From NCBI RefSeq assembly GCF_000003815.2, contig NC_049988.1, positions 9,782,985 through 9,846,984 on the forward strand: a DNA stretch of 64,000 bases. The letters run 5' to 3'. Made by a program: the position numbers and the translations under genes. The notes under the pieces were generated by a model. That model did no database searches, was not told the origin of the DNA, and saw nothing but the letters and a program-made list of their open reading frames with translations. Within the stretch, counting starts at the first letter, position 1. Each line of letters opens with the position of its first letter. Below are positions 11,210 through 60,657 of this stretch, piece after piece. This stretch comes from Branchiostoma floridae (Eukaryota; Chordata; Leptocardii; Amphioxiformes; Branchiostomatidae).

Positions 11210-12420
11210 CATAGTTTCAACATTTCGGTCGCACTACCGCGGATGTCTACTTTGACACTCTACAAAGCGATCTAAAAGCAGAATAATTGCACCATCATAC
11301 GGTAAATTTGAAGCCTCGCTGTCTTTTGCGATAAAGTGTTTACAAATGGCGGTAATTATACTGCAGGAAGGTGAATACTCTCAAAATCGATCGCACTATT
11401 TTGTACCGCGGATAAGAGCTGTGATATGCGGTCTGAACGTGGTATTGATGCTGATTGGTCGTGTGGATGTACATACAGATAATTGTATTGATATATTACT
11501 GCATATCAAACAATGTTTCGTGCTGATTGGTCAACAAAAATTAGTTACGTGCTGATTGGTTAATAAACTTAATTGGCAAATCAATGTGCAGCGTACTGTG
11601 ACACTCCAAATGCGATCTAAAAGCTGAACCATTATACAGTAAATTTCAAGCCTCGCTGGCTTTCGTGATAAAGTCTTAATAAATGGTGTGCAAATGGAGG
11701 TAATAAGACAGAAACAAGGCTAATAGTTTCAAGATTTCGGCCGCACTATTTTGTACGGCGGATAAGACCTGTGCTGTGCGGTCTGAATGCGGTATTGATG
11801 CTCATTGGTCGTGTGAATGAACATACAGATAATTGTATTGATATATTACTGCACATCAAGCAATGTTAGGGGCTGATTGGTCAACAAAAATTAGTTACGT
11901 GCTGATTGGTCAATAGAATTAATTGGCAAATCAATGTGCAGCGTACTGTGACACTCCAGATGCGATCTAAAAGCTGACTTATTGTACCACTATACAGTAA
12001 ATTTGAAGCCTTGTCGGCTTTCGTGATTAAGTATTTGCAAATGGTTTGCAAATAAGGGTAATTATAAGGCAACAAAGTGAATAGTTTCAAGATTTCGGTC
12101 GTACTATTTTGTAACGCGGATAAGAACTGTGCTGTGCGGTCTGAATGCGGTATTGATGCTCATTGGTCGTGTGAATGAACATACAGATAATTGTATTGAT
12201 ATATTACTGCACATCAAGCAATGTTACGTGCTGATTGGTCAACAAAAATTAGTTACGCGCTGATTGGCCAATAAAAATCAATTGGCAAATCAATGTGCAG
12301 CAATGTTAGATGTTGATTGGTTGTTTAGAATTGATTGACCAATCAATGTGTAGCTGCTACATTGCACGCTAGTCAATCTGCAGCATTTATTTCATCGACT
12401 GCTAGGGGTCGCTCTTGAAC
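11210..12420. repeat. ~355 bp satellite array dense in CCAAT boxes
   Basis: Tandem units are anchored on TGCGGTCTGAA, at about 11427, 11777 and 12135, giving periods of about 350 and 358 bp. Partial units extend to both sides (about 11210-11345 and 12290-12420). Each unit contains the word TGATTGGTCAACAAAAATTAG and several more ATTGG words, the inverted CCAAT box, plus ATTTCGGTCGCACTATTTTG. More than fifteen ATTGG/CCAAT words fall in about 1 kb. No open frame runs through the array. It could be plain satellite DNA or a regulatory array for a CCAAT-binding factor such as NF-Y; only the repeat structure is seen directly. Confidence 0.8.
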
Positions 12421-18657: not shown

Positions 18658-21600
18658 TTAGTAGCGACCTACAAACAAAACAAAGGAAACACAAGGGCAT
18701 CAATTAAAATATATCATTAGGCAATACCTGATAGAAGATGAAACTCTCAATCAAAGAAAAAAAGGTAATGATTTGATTCAGTGAAAGCACGTCATGTGGC
18801 CACTCATCATGCAGCTCTTATAGATACTTTAAATTCAGTTCACTTAATTTCATCGTAGAGGGGAAAGGAGTTTATTGCAGTTGAAACAATTCTGTACTGA
18901 AATGCATACTTCTGGAGTGGTGAATTTGCAGCGAAAAAATGAAAACATTGCAAACATTTCAAGATCAGCAGTACATATTCTTAGTGGATTGTTTTCCATC
19001 GCTGAAATCTAAGCGAGTAAAAATGTCTTTAAGTGTGTCTGGTGCATCTATCCTTTTGCCACTTTGCCAATTGAAGATAGCAAAATTTTCCGAAGTAGGT
19101 TTTTGTTGTTCTTCTCTTCATGATACAGAACTGCATGAAATGTTTCCACATTAGGAGGTGCTGAAGAGAAGAGATTTACACTTTGGAACTTGGAAGGACA
19201 GAGTGTAAAAGAAATTGATAAAGGAGACAGAAAAGGATAAAAAGGTAGCTAGATTTTACCCGTCGAAAGAAACTGAGAAAATTAAGGAAGAGCAAAAAAG
19301 CACACACGGAGGCGTCTATATTTACTTACGTGGTGAGCGCGAGTATGAGCGGGATCGTGAGCGAGAATAGTAGCGCCTGGAGCCACGGTAGGAATATGGC
19401 GACGGTGACCTCCGGTAGTAGTCCCGGTCACGATCACGGTCTCTGTAGCCACCGCCCCCGCCGCCACCACCGCCACGGTCGTAACGATCCCCGCGGTCGT
19501 ACCGATCCCCTCGATCCCCACGGTCACCTCGATCCCCGCGGTCACCCCGATCCCCACGGTCTCCGCGATCCCCACGGTCTCCGCGATCTCCCCCCGTGCT
19601 GTGGAGAAATGCCGTGTATCGGGAATTCTGTCATAGGACTATTGCTGAATTTGGATCCTACTCTGACAGCGCATCTAAACTGGCTTACTGTATGATATTC
19701 TCTGAGAGGACTACGTACAATGGCAAAATTTGGGGAACTCTGTCATAAGACTCTTTCTAAATTTGGATGCTCTTGTGACAATGCATGTCAACTTCACTGA
19801 GAGGACTACGTACGATGACAAAATTTGGGGAATTCTGTCATAAGACTCGGATTGCTAAATTTGGATGCTGTTGTGACAATGCATGTCAACTAGTTTTACT
19901 GTGTGATATTCACTGAGAGGACTATGTATGATGGCAAAATTTGGGGAATTCTGTCATAAGACTCGGATTGCAAAATTTGGATGCTGTTGTGACAATGCAT
20001 GTCAACTAGTTTTACTGTGTGATATTCACTGAGAGGACTATGTATGATGGCAAAATTTGGATATTACTGTGTGAATGTATTCACTGAGAGGGCTGTGCTA
20101 GATGATAAAATTTGGACATTATTGCGTGAATGTATTCACTGAGAATATTATGCTGGATGATATAATTTGGATATTACTATGTGAACATATTCAGTGGGAG
20201 GGCTAGATGACAAACTCTGGGCATTACTGTGTGAATTTATTCCCTGGAAGACTGCTAGGTGGTAAAATTTGGATATTTCTTTTAAAAATTAAAGCTGTCT
20301 TCTGCAACCTACTGCAACATTTATACCAAAATAGGAAAGATGATATGTCCTGACATTTTGCTCAGTAAATGACAATTGGTAAGGTTTGTGTACTAAATAT
20401 GTAATGTTTTGAAATGAATAGCTCACTTGGTAAACATTATTGATTCATCATTATAAATTTATACTTTTAGAATAAAATCATCTGACTCACAATTCTACAC
20501 AAACAGAATAGTTTGACACTTCGGAGAAATTTTTGTCACATAATAACTGCATTACTATTTTGATTTTTTTTCAGCTGTTTCTCTGAATTCTAAGAAAGAA
20601 TTTTAAGCGCAACTCTGTATAACATTTCCCGATACATGGCAGGCATTTGGTTAGTATCAAGAAAGACAACACAACACATATAAAACACAACATTTTCATA
20701 CCAACAATACTGCATTTGTTGATGAAGGTTAGACACAATACTGTATTCATCTATAATTCTTCACATTTCATGCAAACATCAATATTGTACAGTTGACAGT
20801 GATCAGAAAAAAATTAAAAACACAAGATTGGGCATTTTCACTGAGCTTTCACAATTTTACGATTACTCTACTCAAAATATACGACTTATTGTTCATCTAT
20901 ATCTAGAACTATTTTTTTACAATGCAAACTGCACCCATGATCAGAAAATTTGAAATGCTCACTACGTGGGTCGTCCCATGTAGATGCCTGGAGTAGGGGT
21001 GTGAGCCCTCTCTGTGATGGAATAGTCCACACGGATGCGGCGTCCATCCACCTCCATTCCATTGGTACGGTCCTTGGCCTACAATTAATTATAGTGAAGA
21101 CTTGCAACTTACATTTTCGCACATTGAATACTTAACGATTAAGGTGCACAAGAGAACTAGAGGTGATGAAGTGATCAGTCTTTGCATCCGTTTTGAGGCA
21201 ATTTTATCACTTTATTCTGAAAATTTGCAATAGTAATGAATAAATGATAAAATATCATAAAACTATTGAATAGGTTCTAACATACCTCGACTGCATCCTC
21301 AGTAGTTTGGAAGTACACAAAGGCAAATCCTCGAGACCGGCCGGTCTGAAACAGGACGAGCAACAAACTTATCATCATCTGCATGGACCTATGCAACACC
21401 TCTCGCTAATCATAACATTCAAACCGGTCATACTGTACTATAACTATTCATACATTCATATATAAGCTATTTGTCATCACAGTGTTCATCTTAAGGCAAT
21501 GTCTGGTATGCACTTTCAACGTGTGCCAGTCTTGCCACTAAAAAGGCTTGTAAATAAGTAACAAATACCATTTGTCCAATAGAAAAAAGGATTCAAAATG

Positions 21601-26565: not shown

Positions 26566-29500
26566 ATGGAACTCAACTGGTGAGTATGATACTTGATAGA
26601 TTTAATAAAAGACTGAAAACGATCTCATAATATAATGGTGATTGAATCAATAAGATCAGAGTCATCAGATCATATTTTATTTGGCATCAGGAACTCACTC
26701 AGGAACACCATATATCATGATCTGAATCAGATGATCCAGTGGGGTTCAACAGTTGAACTTTAAGTGCTTCGAAACTGATCATGCCATACCTGGGTCTAAA
26801 CCTTTTTGGTGCGTGGTGTAGTGGTGTTACCCAGAAATCCTGTCACTGCACATGCATATTCGCATGCATATTCGGAACCAAATTGTGCTCATTTAAACCA
26901 CTGAACTATGCACGCCGTTATTGACCTTCCTCTGCCATAACGTTTAACATGCATATAAGCATACAGCCGTTAAGTCCATATGATATTCTGCATATTCTGA
27001 TGTTTTATCATCCCCAGGGATGCGCCCCTGATCAATGGACAGCAGTCGTTCTTCACAGAGACCAGATATAACCAGTTCACCATCGCTCCACCATTTGATT
27101 CACACCTTTGTCAGGTGAAGGAAAGGTAAACAGAGTCATTTCGATATTTATGATCTGTAACTGAGGAAATGGTTTGATGGACTACTTTTACTTTTCATTT
27201 TTCATTTGTCTGATATGTGTGACTAGTATAACTCAGGGAAATTTGTTTTATTCATTATAACATTACAGTATACAACTCGCGCTCTTCTCTTTATTACAGT
27301 AACTCGCGTCATATGTATGCAGTCACTATTATGATTTAAACTTGTATATTTATAATTGTAGATTCCAAAGCCGGGCTGCAGAAACTTCCAAGAAGAGTCT
27401 GACACAAGCGGAGCTACAAAATGTCCAGGGGACTCCTAGTCCTACAGTTAAGCAGCCGACTGCTGCCGCGAAACCTTCGCTCACATACCCCGCTCCTCGC
27501 ATCCCGTTCCCTCGGCTGTCCAGCCTGACGCACGTAGAGCAGAAGACTTACATGGAGCTGTTCAGGAAGTACCAGTTCTACAACCCAGCACGGCCGCCTG
27601 GACCAGTAGAAATGAGGGAAATACAGCAATTCAGAGTAAGGGTGACAGTATTTTGAAAAATGGCTAAATCAGAGGGCATATTCAAGATACAGTAAACTTT
27701 TCTCAAAGTTTAAACATGAATCCTGATTTTGCCTCTTCCCATGACTGTGGAAACTTTTTCTTTCTTGTTGTTGATTATAATATGGGGGCCCCAAAGCCCT
27801 TTTCCGTAGAGCGTAATCGGCGGTTTTAATTCTACGTACTACGTAGCGGGACCACTCGAATTCAACGTAGAGCGTAATCGGTGCATTTTGCGTTGAGCGA
27901 TATTGGCCCCTTTAATTTAACGTATTACGTAGAAGCTAACCGGATTTTACCGTACAACGTAATTCATATTAATTTTTCTTCAATCGTAATCAAAGTTTCA
28001 TTAAACTTAACTAGTCTACCGGCAAATTTTACCCGCGAAAATGCTGGAAATTGCGTTTCAAAGGGTCCAGATTTCAAAATTTCGCCGGACATTCCTTGCT
28101 ATGGCTCAACACTTCGGCACTGGACATGGTGAAAATATGTTGCGGGGGCGTTGTCCCCCAACTAGTAGAAATCTTTGTACCGACCTTAGCTATATAGCTT
28201 AGTTAACAAGCAAAACGTGCCCCTTAAATGCAGGAAATGACATTTCAGAGGGTCGAGATTTCAATTTTTCTCCGGGCGCCGGGCGGCCCTTGCCAATGCT
28301 TGCGAGGGGTTGGGCCTCCGGCGCTCACGACTCTCTGGCGCTCGTCGCCCTTAAAGACGTTTCTCTGACAGAAATGTCATTACATTGAGCATAGGGTCTG
28401 TCAGCAAAATTTGTCCCTCAAAATGCAGGAAATGGTGTTTCAGAGGGTAAAAATTTCCAAATTTTCCCGTACCTACCTTGCGACAGTTCGACTGTTCGTG
28501 CTTTCGGCACTCGAAATCTGAAAATGATGTTTGGGGGCGTTGCCCAACTTAAAGCTAAAACCATCTAATTGGATATCGATGCTATTTAACTTAGCTTAGT
28601 CTGTGAGCAAAATTTGCCCTTCAAAATGCATAAAATGGCGGTTCAGAGGGTTAGGATTTCACAATATTCCCGGGGGAGCATGCCCCCGGACGCCCTAGGA
28701 TTGTCGCTCCTCCGCTTTCGGTGCTACAAGTGCTGAAAATTACGTCACATGAGAAATTTGCTGTCGCCGCCTTTGGCCAGCAAGACGTCTTTAGAAGTTA
28801 AGTTTTAATCTTATTGATGGAATTATCAGTTTTGTTTAGATCTCATCTTCACATGTTCTGCCGTCGGCGGAGTTCAGCCAAAAGACAATAAATATTTGCA
28901 TAATGCATTATGAAATTTCGTAATTTAGCGTAGAGCGTAATAAAGTGTCTATAATTTAGCGTATTACGTAGCCGGTCCTCCCGAATTTAGCGTAGAGCGT
29001 TGTCGGTACCCCCCCTTGGGGGCCCTCTAATATAATTATAAGGCGCCAGTCGTACTAATTACTGACCTTCTGCCTTGTTAGCCTCATACACACAAATTGA
29101 TATTTGCTGACTCTTGAAGTTACTGCTTATTGGCTAATCAGACAAAATTGACTTCATCCCAATTATCTTTTCAGGACTTACAGATGAAGGTTGGTCCAGA
29201 GCAGGAGGAGTTCATGGGTTACCTGGAGTTTGTAGCCACACAGAGTCCTCAAGATTACAGCTTCATGCAGCCACAGGCTCATAGATACATGCAGGTATGT
29301 CATCGCGTTGGGATTATCTCGCGTTAACGTTGTCACTTGATACAGGACAAAACTTGTCTTCAATCAGTCAGACTATGCATTGTGAGCAATTCGTTACTGG
29401 ATTTCCGTCTCAGTTTTGTGTTTTATATGTTCAAAATACTGGTTTATTATATGTAGGTATTAGTTAATACAAGTTCAAGAAAGGACTGATATTTATGATT

Positions 29501-29996
29501 TAAGATTTTTCTATGACCAGATTGAGAACAACCCCCAAACTTTGGCCCAAAGTAAATGTCAATAGTTATGTTATATTGTTACTAATATCTCTTCATCTGC
29601 CAGTTATGTCTTCAATTTGTTGGCTGAACAACGTACGTCTGTTGTTATTTTTTTAACAGGAAGTTCTTTCAGCTAGCAACAGAAGTATACCAATGATGGG
29701 TTACCCACAGTTTTACAAGGTTTACCAGACTGTGGGCATCTCCACTGTGGGCTTCAAAACTGACCCTGTCATGAGACATGTCAAAACACTGCTGGAAATG
29801 GTGAGTCTTCTGTGATTATTGAACAAGCTGCTAGTGATTTGTAGGTAGCAAATCTCCCTGTACTTTGGGAGATTATGTACAATCTTACATGAAATTCAAA
29901 CAACTTGTTGCAATGTTGTTTTAGTATTCTTCTGTACCAATCTATATCTGTGAATGAACCAATCAAATAATCTGTTAAACCATTATCATAGTGTTG

Positions 29997-30038
<42 letters not shown>

Positions 30039-33000
30039 GCAGCATCATCATCATCATCCGGGCGTGCTGGTTGCACGCATGAACTCTCACCTAAAACTGT
30101 TTTCTGATCTCTAGGGCTCTGTTCCTGGGTTGAAGCTTCCCAAAGCCAATGAAACGGCCAAGATTCTGCCTTCATATGAAGAGGTTGTGGATCACAAACC
30201 AGTCGACAGTGCAACAAATGCTGACAGAAGCACCATGCAAAAGGTTTTTGTAGCAAAACGAATACTACAGTAGTCTTATGCCTTATGAGATGGTATACAT
30301 TTATGATAGGTAATATTTTACAACAAGAACTTTTGATCTTTATATACAACAGGTACAATGTATGGCTACTTATTGTGCAACAATTATAATAATGAATATG
30401 AAAACTACAATGTATTTTGTAAAGAATGTTTCTGTTCTAAAAGATCTAATGAGGCATTTATAACTCAGATGTACAAATGTATATTGTGTAGGAGGTGAGT
30501 AAAGATGAGAATGCAGAGAAACTAGCAGCCAAGTATGGAGCTGGTATAGTCCTGTCTGCTGATGCTCTGTGCACCCTTTTGGACAACCATGCACCTCACT
30601 ACCAGGAGCAGTGGGAGCTACCTGTCATTGTCAAGGAGTCAGCAGCAACAGGTGTGTGATAAGGGACCGTACGGCGTTTAGTGAGGGGGGAGGGCCGGTC
30701 GCCAGAGGGTCGGGTCAAAAAATTTTTGCATGGCCCTCCCCCCAGGTAAATTTTTTTTTGCTAGGCCCTCCCCCCAAGACAAAATATTTTTGCTTGGCCC
30801 TCCCCCCTCCTATCAACTTTGAAAAAAATATTCAAGACGGCAATAAAGCACTGCGCTCCCGCATTTGGAAATGTGCTTTGCGTCATACTTTTTCATGATT
30901 TTCATCGAGAAGCAGATCTCTCACCCCTAGTAAAAAAAGGAAAACAGAATGGCTCAAAATATCTGCTAAATAGAGGGATAAATATCTGCTTCATAGAGGC
31001 ATAAATATTTGCTTTATAGAAGCTATTTCATTGTTTTGATATTAAAACAACACCTAAAAAGCATTTGTACCTGGATTTCTAGTAGATTTGCGCGACGAAG
31101 CGGCGCGCGCCCCGCTTCCTAAATTTACGTATTGCAAGCTCGCGGGCCTGAGCGGCTTGACGGAAACTATTTTCAATTTACATATATTTTGGACTTTTTC
31201 TTGGTTCTGTGGTGGTAATAACTTACGGTAAATCGGGGGGAAAAAATGAAAATTAAAACGACAGCACGATTCGACTTCCAAAACTGTAGTGGGGAGGGGG
31301 GCACCAACGCGTGACGCTGATTTTCCCACGGCGGGGTAAGACCGGTCGCCTCTCTCTAGCCGCCGGCGGGCGTGAGACCGCAGACTTGCAGGAGATCTTT
31401 TAGAAATGCCACGCTTTTTTTGCCACGATTTCCTGCATTGCTTTTTTATGGGAAAATTTGCTGGTTAGATGACATTTCTATGAAAAAAAAATACGAGGGT
31501 TTCAAGTTTTTGAGAACGACGTTCCGAACACCATGTTCGGCGCCAAAGGCACGAAGAATCGCAAGGTAGGTCCTGGAGAATTTTGAAATCTTGACCCTCT
31601 TAAAAGCTATTTCCTTCAGTTTGAGGAGATATTTTGCTGACAAACAAAGCTAACTTTAATAGCATTTCAATTTAGAAATACAAAATTAAATCCCCCCAAA
31701 CACATTATCACGATGTCGGTCATCAAAGGCGCGAGGCCGGTCACGTCAAAAGGGATCCAGGGAAATTTGCAAATATTTACCCTTGAGCTCTGAAACGCCA
31801 TTTCTTACATTTTGAGGGCAATAAGACAGTGGTAAATTTTGCTGGCAGACTAATCTAGAGTTTAATAACATTTCTGTGCGTGAAGAAGGTTTTCGAGGGC
31901 GTCATGCATAAGCCCCGCCCCCTCCCTTTCGCATTTTCACTGTATCCCGAGCGCCAACCTCGGGCGATCCCTTGCAGAGGTCCAGAAAAATTTTGAAATC
32001 TTGACCCTCTGAAACGCCGTTTCTTGGATTTTAAGGGACATATTTTGCTGGCAGACCAAGCTATTTTTTTTTGCTTGGCCCTCCCCCCGAGTAAAAAAAA
32101 ATTTGCTAGGCCCTCCCCCTGGCAAAATATTTTTTTGCTTGGCCCTCCCCCCCCTGGCGACCGGCCCTCCCCCCTCGCTAAATGCCGTACGGTCCCTAAT
32201 AGGTGTGGGTTTGATCATGAGGCACTGTTACTGTCGAGGAGTCAACAGCAACAGGTGTGTGATAATAGGTGTGGGTTTGGGGCACTGTTACTGTCAATGA
32301 GTCAACATCAACAGGTTTGTGATAGGTAAAGCTTTTAGGCACTGTTTCTGTCAAGGAGTCAACATCATCAGCTTTGTGATGATAGATGTAGTTCTGAGGC
32401 AATGTTACTGTCATCAAGGACGTTATGATATAACGTCCTTGCTGTCATGAATCAACATCAACAAATTTGTAATAGGTGGAGCTTTTGGGCCCTGATTAAT
32501 ACTGTCAAGTCATCAACTTCAATGGTTTGTGATAGATGTAGACTTGAGGCCTTGACTGTGAGGACAATTTTCTTGATTTCATTTCCATACTCTGTGCTTT
32601 TGATTATCCACTTGAATTAGCAAATACCATAACAAATAGAAAATAAGACATTTGCTGTGATTGATAGCCTTTTGTAATCCACATTTATTAAGTTGACCTT
32701 TTCCATTGAATACATTTCTATTCAACAAACTTAGATTATTTTACCCAATGTTGTCCTTTAGATGTTTAAGTCTAGATAACTCAGAGTTGTATGTTCTAAA
32801 TATATTGACTGTCCTCTCTTCACTTGTTCAGGAGATGGTACAAGTACAAGGACTGTTATCATTGACAAGCCCCTACCAAAGAAAAAGATAACCACAAGAG
32901 AAAAGAACACACTTTTCCACAGCATTGCCTTAGAGTTGCTTCTGACAGACAAAAGTGCTGGTACTGCACTGGAGAAACTGAGATCAGATAGATACAAAGA

Positions 33001-36000
33001 CATGTCAAGCTTAGATGCCCCCATTGAAGAAGTGGAACCTTCCAGTTCCCTTGAAAAGGATACACAACAGGATGTAACCAAAGAGAAGATGGGGAGGAGG
33101 ACATGTCAAGAAATGGAGGAAGATGACTTGCTTGGAAACAATCAGGATTTGACAGATCTGGAAACCTTTGGCGAGGGAAGTAGAAGACGAAACCCTAAGA
33201 AAATGTCGCCTAAGATGCACGCAGTTCAGACCACAAAGATCTCACAAGAACAACAAGACAGTGTGGGAGAAACTTGCACTGCAAATCTAAAAGATGTTAA
33301 CTCAGGTGATGATCAGTGCAGAGAATTTGAGCTGGATATCGGAAGCTCACAGATGGATGTATCTGAGAATGATGATGAGCCTCAAATAGAGGCTAAAGAT
33401 CCTGTAGAGGAAAGCAAGAACAATGTTACAACCAGCACACACGCATCTTTAGATAGTGATGTAAACTCTCAGAGAAAAGAAGTTCAACTTGAAGCAGAAG
33501 GAGATAGGAGTGAAGTTGATAAAGAGGAGACAAAGGAGTTAACAGGAAGAGTACATCTGAGTCAGGACAGTGACAGTGATCTTGGATTGATGATCGTGAC
33601 AGACTCAGATTCTCAAGGGGAGGGGTCACCTGTAAAAAGGCAAAAGAAGATGTCTGAAACATTAGAGTCTAGTGCTGGCAAAGAAGAACCGGGACACTTT
33701 TCAAGTAGGATAGAAGAAAAGCCACAGTTTAAAGAAACAGAGCAAGAATCTTTAGGGAACAAAGATGAAGAGAAAATTGAAGGAGAGAATGAAAGCAAAG
33801 TTATTGAGTCAGCCATGACAGGAATGACCTTGAGGAGTAGAAGGTCAACAGGACAGGCTAAAAGTAGCCCAATGTCACCACCTGTCAAAAGACAGAGGAT
33901 GGAAGAACCTAGCACTGGTAAGGGCAAAGTAGCTAAAGGAAGCCCACCAAAGACAGAAGAAAAGTCAAAAACAGGTTTGCAGAAAAATTCGATAGAATCT
34001 GATGGTTCTTCAGACAGTACTATTCAGGCAAAAGCACCACAGGTGATCAAAGACAAAGATCCTGAAGACAAAATGGACAGATCGGATGAAAAGACTGATG
34101 CAGTGGCTCCTGCAGTTAGAAGTCCAAAGGAAGGAGGCGCTGTTAGCAGGGAAAGGGGTGCAGCAGCTAAGCCTGAGTCAGAAGGAAAGGGTGGAGTTTT
34201 AGACACCGTGGGACAGATTATGCAGCTACAGGAGAATCTGCAAAAGTTCCAGCCAGAGGAAAAACAAGGTGAGATTTTTGGTTCAAACTGTAATTCTTGT
34301 TTTTGTGTCCGCGATTCTGCCTTATGCAGCAAATAACCATTTTATGATCATATCTTTATCTTTAGGTCAAGTGAAACCTAGTACTCCACGTGGCGTGGCA
34401 TTACCACGGCAACCCTCCTCCTGCCCACAACCTGCACCTTTGGGAGTGAAGCCAGCACCACATTCGCGTGAGCAGCTGGAATATTGCTTACCTGCGGATC
34501 TGAAGATGTGCCAGGAAAACCTGCAGGACTACACCAGGCCTGACAAGCACAATGTGGTGTACAGTCTCATGAGTTTTGGCAAGCTGTTGCTTCTGGTCAG
34601 GTCTGAACTTCCAGCTGTCTGTAGGACAACTGGGGGTCATTTCAAGGTGAGAATAGGCATGATAAGTCAATTCAGAGTATATATTAGCTGCACATTTGCA
34701 GCCTAAGATGCATTGTGGGTATTACATGTATACCAGTACATGAGGGTCTGCATGGGGGAGTCTTGGTAACGCTTAACGGTGATTCAGGAGGCCCGGTAAC
34801 GCTTAACGGTGAATTCAGGAGGCCCGGTAACGCTTAACGGTAAATTCAGAAGGAGTTACAAAACATAACACTTAAGTAACATCGACGTGCATTCCTATTC
34901 ATACAGCGCTAGAGTAGTTATATCAATGGGTGAAAATGTCCGACTATTGACATTGTGAGAAGCAAAAGGTGTGACAGGACAATGTCCATGACATCTGTAA
35001 CTTGACCGAGGCAGATCTAGAGTTCCCGGCCCGCCACAGAGACGGTGGCAGCAAATTTCTTATGGAGGGATTGAACTATTGTGTCAGCACATGGAGCGCC
35101 AAAGGCGCCACGCATCCTAGGGGGGTCCGGGGGTATGCTCCCCCGGGAAAATTTTAAAATCAAGACCCTCTTAAATGCTATTTCCTGCATTTTTGACAAA
35201 TTTTGCCGACCGACTAAGCTAGGTTGATTTTGACATTTTCATCTAATTACACATGGTTATAGCTTTGGCCTCCACCCCCAGAGCCCCCGACATATTTTAC
35301 CATTTAGATTCGAGCTCGGAAGGCACGAGACGTTGCAATATAAGTCCGGGGAAATTTTAAAATCTGGACCGTCTGAAACGCCTTTTGAAGGACAGATTTT
35401 CCTGTAAGACGAAGCTAAATCAGATATAACATTTTCTTAGAGAGAAAAGGTTTTTTTGTGCCGGAAAGCCCACGCCCCTAACGTTTATATTTTGTCAATG
35501 TCGTCGTAAGCGCCAAAGGCGCAAGCCGTCGCAAGGGAGAAACCTCATTTTCTGCATTCTAAAAGTACTTTTTGCCCGAAACTAAGCTTGACACTGAAAT
35601 CTGTATGAGTGATAAAGATTTTGAGGGCAACGCTTCCGCAACATATTTTACCCTGTTCAGAGCCGAAGGCCGGGAGGCTCGGAGAAATTTTGAAATATGG
35701 ACCCTTTGAGACGCCATTTCCTGCATTCTCAGGGGTTCTATCTGGCATTAGACTTAATGTGTATAACGGGTTACGAAGAATTTCTTGGTAACGCTTAACG
35801 GTGAATTCGGGACAACAAATAACGATTAACGTTAAATTAAAACGACCAATAACGCTTCACGAAGAATATACCGATAACGATTAACGGTGAATTAGAGCGG
35901 GTCGGTAACGATTAACGGTGAATTAAAATGGCTCGTAATGCTTAACGGAAAAAGGCATGCAGACCCTCGTACATGTATATCCAATTTGAAAGCCCCTGGA

Positions 36001-53275: not shown

Positions 53276-60657
<7,382 letters not shown>

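Follow-up and report, generated by a model that had tools for sequence, protein, structure and literature searches.

How does one and the same tandem array come to form the interior of transposable elements that differ in their ends and in the target duplications beside them? The question is raised by a 64,000-nucleotide stretch of the Branchiostoma floridae assembly (contig NC_049988.1, positions 9,782,985 to 9,846,984; hereafter the window), in which three elements are built around several copies of one unit: element A (27784..29027, minus strand), element B (30663..32196, plus strand) and element C (34742..35968, plus strand). Across the genome, we find this internal array as a standard component of families that have four end types and three duplication lengths, namely 3 bp in B, 5 bp in two further families that we call D and E, and 6 bp in A and C.

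Families with different ends have the same internal array

The original prediction, made from the letters of the window, described A, B and C as transposons of three different types with the target duplications TAATAT, TAA and GTACAT. All three elements and their duplications are borne out. Element A, whose ends are GAGGG..CCCCC, is a copy of a non-autonomous family and lies between 6-bp copies of TAATAT at 27778-27783 and 29028-29033. Element B belongs to a Harbinger-like non-autonomous family and has inverted ends GGGACCGTACGGC with a 3-bp duplication, TAA, and element C, with ends GAGGGTCTGCATG and the 6-bp duplication GTACAT, is a diverged relative of A. The division into three types did not survive closer comparison, as A and C are end-to-end homologues, both with 6-bp duplications. 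When reversed, A aligns with C over its full length, including the subterminal repeats, which are homologous though diverged, and a profile of the A family spans positions 1-1219 of the 1,227 in C (E=4.5e-109); the opposite strands of the two reflect insertion direction only. Unlike A and C, element B has 3-bp duplications, other ends and a similarity confined to the core, outside of which its consensus is without similarity to the A-family profile. Within the window, the types are two, A/C and B, not three.

A profile was built from ten units, and its strong matches in the window are these same ten seeds. Searching the 64 kb with this profile gave four units in A on the minus strand, three units and a weak one in B on the plus strand, and three units and a partial one in C, also on the plus strand, with no unit elsewhere in the window (next match E=2.9). 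Numbered by profile match and position analysis, the units of A are found at 28593..28687 (unit 1, position class 1), 28395..28483 (unit 2), 28196..28281 (unit 3) and 28011..28100 (unit 4), and those of C at 35129..35220 (unit 1), 35332..35416 (unit 2), 35539..35588 (unit 3, a partial, weak match with E=0.0067, position class 3) and 35666..35756 (unit 4). In B, profile matches place units 2, 3 and 4 at 31560..31651, 31752..31856 and 31977..32062, the last adjoining the right terminal repeat, and a degenerate unit, perhaps unit 1, gives a weak match at 31424..31465 (E=0.034). The core lies off-centre in B, and its stretch 31977-32060 has at least 40 exact copies in the genome.

Given that the seeds and the strong matches coincide, a second, non-circular test was made by running a profile from 25 A-family copies against the B consensus. 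It gave matches of 85.7, 57.1 and 53.0 bits within positions 835-1398, and an additional sub-threshold match at 762-818. Against the same profile, 300 dinucleotide shuffles of B gave no score above 0 bits, and chance similarity of the B core was rejected on this control. The tandem unit that had been predicted, in minus sense in A and in plus sense in B and C, is confirmed; the words by which it had been described hold in part, GGGCAACGCCCCC and GCGCCAAAGGCGC being found in some units only.

The assembly searched for further copies comprises 513,431,437 bases in 431 contigs. We scored the best 40 of 1,862 candidates for B, of 2,648 for A and of 2,084 for C, a choice biased toward copies like those in the window; the copy samples include the window's own A (L009) and C (L059), but not its B. 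For B, 28 loci (8 + 20) were fetched out of the 40 scored matches. Both ends are present in 26 of the 28, and every one of these 26 has a 3-bp duplication, which is TAA or TTA in 24 copies, CTA in one and CAA in one. Both ends were likewise found in 26 of 30 loci for A, 25 of them with an exact 6-bp duplication, and in 8 of 12 loci for C, all eight with a 6-bp duplication. Mean divergence from the consensus is 0.5-5.6% per 100-bp bin in 25 A and 25 B copies, a value that is low by choice of sample. The ends of B occur at 330 places in the genome with at most two mismatches, and at none in a reversed control. From the places listed, we picked 37 pairs of B ends that face each other; 33 of them span 1,337-1,611 bp, and the remaining four 912, 2,124, 2,241 and 4,755 bp. 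Because the end pairs are mostly of uniform span and the copies have their own duplications, the core appears to be a standard component of B.

The widest of these pairs (G000:C1:29616169-29620923) consists of exact B ends with a match to the B core inside, and would be a long B element, perhaps one with other DNA nested inside or a partner with a gene. One A copy (L032), which has a 6-bp duplication, holds extra DNA and at 2,489 bp is twice the usual length. Three C-like loci (L061, L062 and L067) show the C left end at about 86% identity without a matching right end, and are either truncated or members of a subfamily whose right part differs. At L049:2222-2436, a C-like copy starts about 210 bp beyond a B copy, so that elements with the core can be near neighbours.

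A 34-base unit pattern, run on the assembly with at most two mismatches, matched at 606 places, and its reversed control matched nowhere. Eighteen of the listed places were fetched to cover variant words, a non-random choice that gives no estimate of family shares. They comprise one A element (L078), four full copies of family E, four incomplete E-like copies (L081, L085, L086 and L088), eight copies of family D and one unsettled locus (L082). The full copies of E (L074, L075, L076 and L079) have both ends, CAGAGGCGGCGGCACC...GGTGCCGCCGCCACTG, of the form CAG..CTG (CAGAGG...CCACTG), and a 5-bp duplication in all four. Family D (L071, L072, L073, L077, L080, L087, L089 and L090) has the ends CATGCCCGTAGC...GGCTACGGGCATG, of the form CATG..CATG; both are kept in six of the eight copies (L080 without the first five bases), five of these six with a 5-bp duplication and L089 with none. 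The core is therefore common to at least five families, which have four types of ends and duplicate 3, 5 or 6 bp of target, and carriers beyond A to E may exist. The originally claimed sharing of a core despite different target duplications stands for A/C versus B, and is widened by D and E. A single terminal type at all genome matches, named in the original prediction as an outcome that would remove the sharing, was not seen; there are several end types.

The ends and duplications of these families can be set against known classes. B has the 3-bp duplications, mostly TWA, of PIF/Harbinger elements (26 of 26 copies with both ends). An end rule for hAT elements is CAG..CTG, which E follows, and the duplications of E (4/4) have the length of the 5-bp hAT group, as those of A (25/26) and C (8/8) have that of the 6-bp group. 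A further hAT end pattern is YARNG; the ends of A and C, which start with GAGGG, depart from it, the first base misfitting. Helitrons are expected to make no target duplication, and the same would be expected of the Helitron-associated pearl elements; target duplications are found in all five families here. Their lengths of 3, 5 and 6 bp likewise differ from the TTAA duplication of the CMITE-like group. The hAT group with 5-bp duplications is described in PMC12730594. IS3EU elements have TA..TA ends (PMC10045372), and IS3EU was rejected for A and C, which have GAGGG.. ends instead.

Order of the units in the cassette

A tree was built of 22 units from A, B, C, two E copies and two D copies, with the weakly matched B1 and C3 omitted. 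The position 1 units of A, C, E and D group together (support 98/98), as do the position 3 units of A and E (99/99), and the position 4 units of A, C and E group with the second unit of D (84/89); B4 and C2 form long branches. Since the units of A, C, D and E group by position, not by family, the array of these families most likely formed once, with four units, of which D retains units 1 and 4. Repeated capture of a satellite-like unit, which the original prediction had offered as one of two explanations, is unsupported for A, C, D and E, as their units are orthologous by array position; in B, such capture may have taken place. Aligned in register, the cores of A and E agree in 72.6% of 756 columns, which exceeds the 68.3% (309 columns) found when stretches of A's own array are compared with one another. 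In a test that left out one family at a time, 16 of 20 units returned to their own position; the four misses, positions 2 and 3 of both E copies, went to position 4. Judged from these comparisons, the four-unit cassette appears to predate the split of A, C, D and E, and would have been inherited or transferred as a block.

The array of B is more diverged. All three full units of B score best against position 2 (96.1, 84.3 and 86.0 bits), which may mean that position 2 is the least changed. A block of B is collinear with A at 65.3% identity over 522 columns (E=7.9e-47, 173 bits, versus 109 bits for the next register). Against E, two registers are nearly equal, at 158 and 152 bits, so that these alignments do not single out one order of the units in B.

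How the core may have come to lie between different ends

Elements A to E look like non-autonomous DNA transposons resembling miniature inverted-repeat transposable elements (MITEs), mobilised in trans by transposases that recognise their ends. The explanation to which we lean, with confidence a little above even, is the passage of the cassette as a block between end types, that is, between families with different ends. The cassette would change its end type when a body gains new ends, or when ends gain a new body. The route could be, for instance, recombination between nested copies or a switch of template while an excision gap is repaired, and those combinations that an available transposase can move would then multiply. 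B, with its Harbinger-type duplications, would be the clearest transfer across transposase superfamilies. The body is at least a tolerated passenger, and a better conserved box of about 95 bp within the unit hints that it may be useful. Several observations weigh against block passage. No autonomous element or transposase is linked to any of the families, although no proper search for such partners was made, and that the transposases differ is therefore deduced only from the ends and the lengths of the duplications. A transfer event is seen at no junction, and no foreign end match longer than 12 bp is left in B. The grouping of position 2 units is weak (40/49), and the other units of B are loose in the unit tree and are not placed by position. 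A tree of whole cores (eight rows, B omitted) fits plain descent, with the 6-bp and the 5-bp families on two sides of a branch that is itself unsupported (40/0). In addition, hAT groups with 5-bp and with 6-bp duplications are both known (PMC12730594).

Plain descent is the alternative that we take most seriously, as a tenable but distinctly less probable account. A single hAT-like ancestor with four units in its body would have given rise to A, C, D and E, their ends, duplication lengths and transposases having diverged together, and only B would have gained a piece of the body from outside. The full-length homology of A and C, the one 5-bp side and one 6-bp side that the core tree allows, and the hAT-like CAG..CTG ends and 5-bp duplications of E all agree with such a history, as does the placing of 5- and 6-bp hAT families in one animal hAT lineage (PMC12730594). 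Even so, a transfer is still required for B, and to the eye A/C, E and D differ from one another in their outer ends. Those of D and of A/C are also off the hAT end pattern. Independent capture of a free, satellite-like repeat by several MITEs is a good deal more doubtful. Networks of satellites and transposons are described in bivalves (PMC5139131), and the units of B do not sort by position; however, in A, C, D and E they are orthologous by position, at most three unit places lie within 1 kb among the matches listed of the 606 (long arrays were not searched for as such), and 17 of the 18 fetched loci lie in A, D or E-like elements, L082 being unsettled.

We also weighed whether the array is maintained for what it does. 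Under this explanation, a four-box cassette would be a selected non-coding cis-module that helps any carrier, for instance as a transposition enhancer, by binding a host factor or by escape from silencing, and would have been taken up by several superfamilies and kept whatever the ends; were it true, the cassette would be an accessory common to transposons, working whatever the transposase. When families were compared at matching positions, the box of about 95 bp proved more similar than the spacer in 32 of 36 cases (means 0.754 versus 0.611), which favours such a module; these comparisons omit within-E and within-D pairs, pairs with too few columns and B, and are not independent of one another, and a similar box could also result from conversion between units. 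In a hairpin word of the unit, 69.2% of cells are paired, versus 67.4% in shuffles, a value equalled or exceeded by 210 of 1,000 shuffles, so that a kept hairpin is unsupported. The core matches no Rfam family, and a structured RNA was rejected for want of such a match and of covariation support in the hairpin word. A functional core swapped between families, the other explanation originally proposed, is favoured by the conservation of the box and gains no support from the hairpin test, and we judge a selected module unlikely, though less so than repeated capture. A coding core is unlikely too: the minus strand of D has long stop-free stretches, yet their frame and extent differ among seven copies. 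That the pattern is an artefact, with B a nested insertion or its similarity due to chance, we consider practically negligible. The off-centre place of the core in B is all that speaks for it, against the shuffle control and the uniform B copies. A Harbinger insertion around an A/C element, which the original prediction had considered, is refuted by the 26 of 28 B loci in which both B ends stand with their own 3-bp duplication, and when the 60-bp terminal sequences of A, C, D and E were compared with B, no match exceeded 12 bp, leaving no longer foreign end remnant.

In other collections, two patterns run on viral contigs and one run on genome contigs gave no match, and a plasmid collection gave none for B. 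A GC-rich palindrome pattern matched two bacterial contigs, neither of which fits the unit profile; both were rejected.

Known systems and neighbouring repeats

The closest parallels are partial. In Acropora corals, CMITE families are MITEs with different ends and an internal region better conserved than the ends, of unknown origin and role (PMC2872659). They resemble the amphioxus families in having a conserved internal region common to several families with different ends, and differ in that all are about 100 bp long, with piggyBac-type TTAA duplications and a single 75-bp region (PMC2872659), whereas the amphioxus families have a four-unit array in elements of 0.6-1.5 kb with duplications of 3, 5 and 6 bp. 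Fungal TET/JBP genes are carried by DNA transposons of many superfamilies, including Harbinger, hAT and IS3EU (PMC12730594). There too one cargo extends across superfamilies, passed passively and with borders that have no signature, but it is a protein-coding gene in autonomous transposons, while the amphioxus core is apparently non-coding and its elements are non-autonomous. The pearl elements of bivalves are modular and MITE-like, with a core of short tandem arrays (at most six monomers), and related repeats occur there in different elements and as satellites, forming a network (PMC5139131). Unlike the amphioxus families, which have target duplications and units that are ordered and orthologous across families, pearl elements are linked to Helitrons (PMC5139131). 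Tetris of Drosophila virilis is also non-autonomous and has tandem repeats of about 220 bp, but these lie in its terminal inverted repeats and seed satellite arrays, and it is the end portions, not a body, that it has in common with DAIBAM (PMC4079207).

What is new here is an ordered, apparently non-coding body that persists in families whose duplications measure 5 or 6 bp, and of which a family with 3-bp duplications has a more diverged version. Our literature search, whose scope lay outside Repbase and most subscription literature, found no published account of this cassette, or of a tandem core spanning these duplication lengths. The source of the internal parts of MITEs is an open question, and an ordered body that outlasts its ends, and probably its transposase, lets the exchange and selection of bodies be asked about directly. 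It also cautions that repeats classified by their interiors can end up in one group although they belong to different superfamilies.

Within the window, B is inserted in an array of a 57-60 bp minisatellite, a few bases past a word resembling a splice donor. The sequence just left of B (30602-30661) is repeated to its right at 32200-32550, and what precedes B resembles an exon end that includes a splice donor. Between B and C, a long open frame at 32780-34336, with only an insignificant Pfam match, is presumably a host exon. Farther away, a tandem array of a 358-bp unit (2.7 copies, 87%) occupies 11351-12301, nested tandem arrays of 116-bp and 55-bp units lie at 19793-20277, and an interstitial, telomere-like array of 12 copies of GGGTTA is found at 53846-53918.

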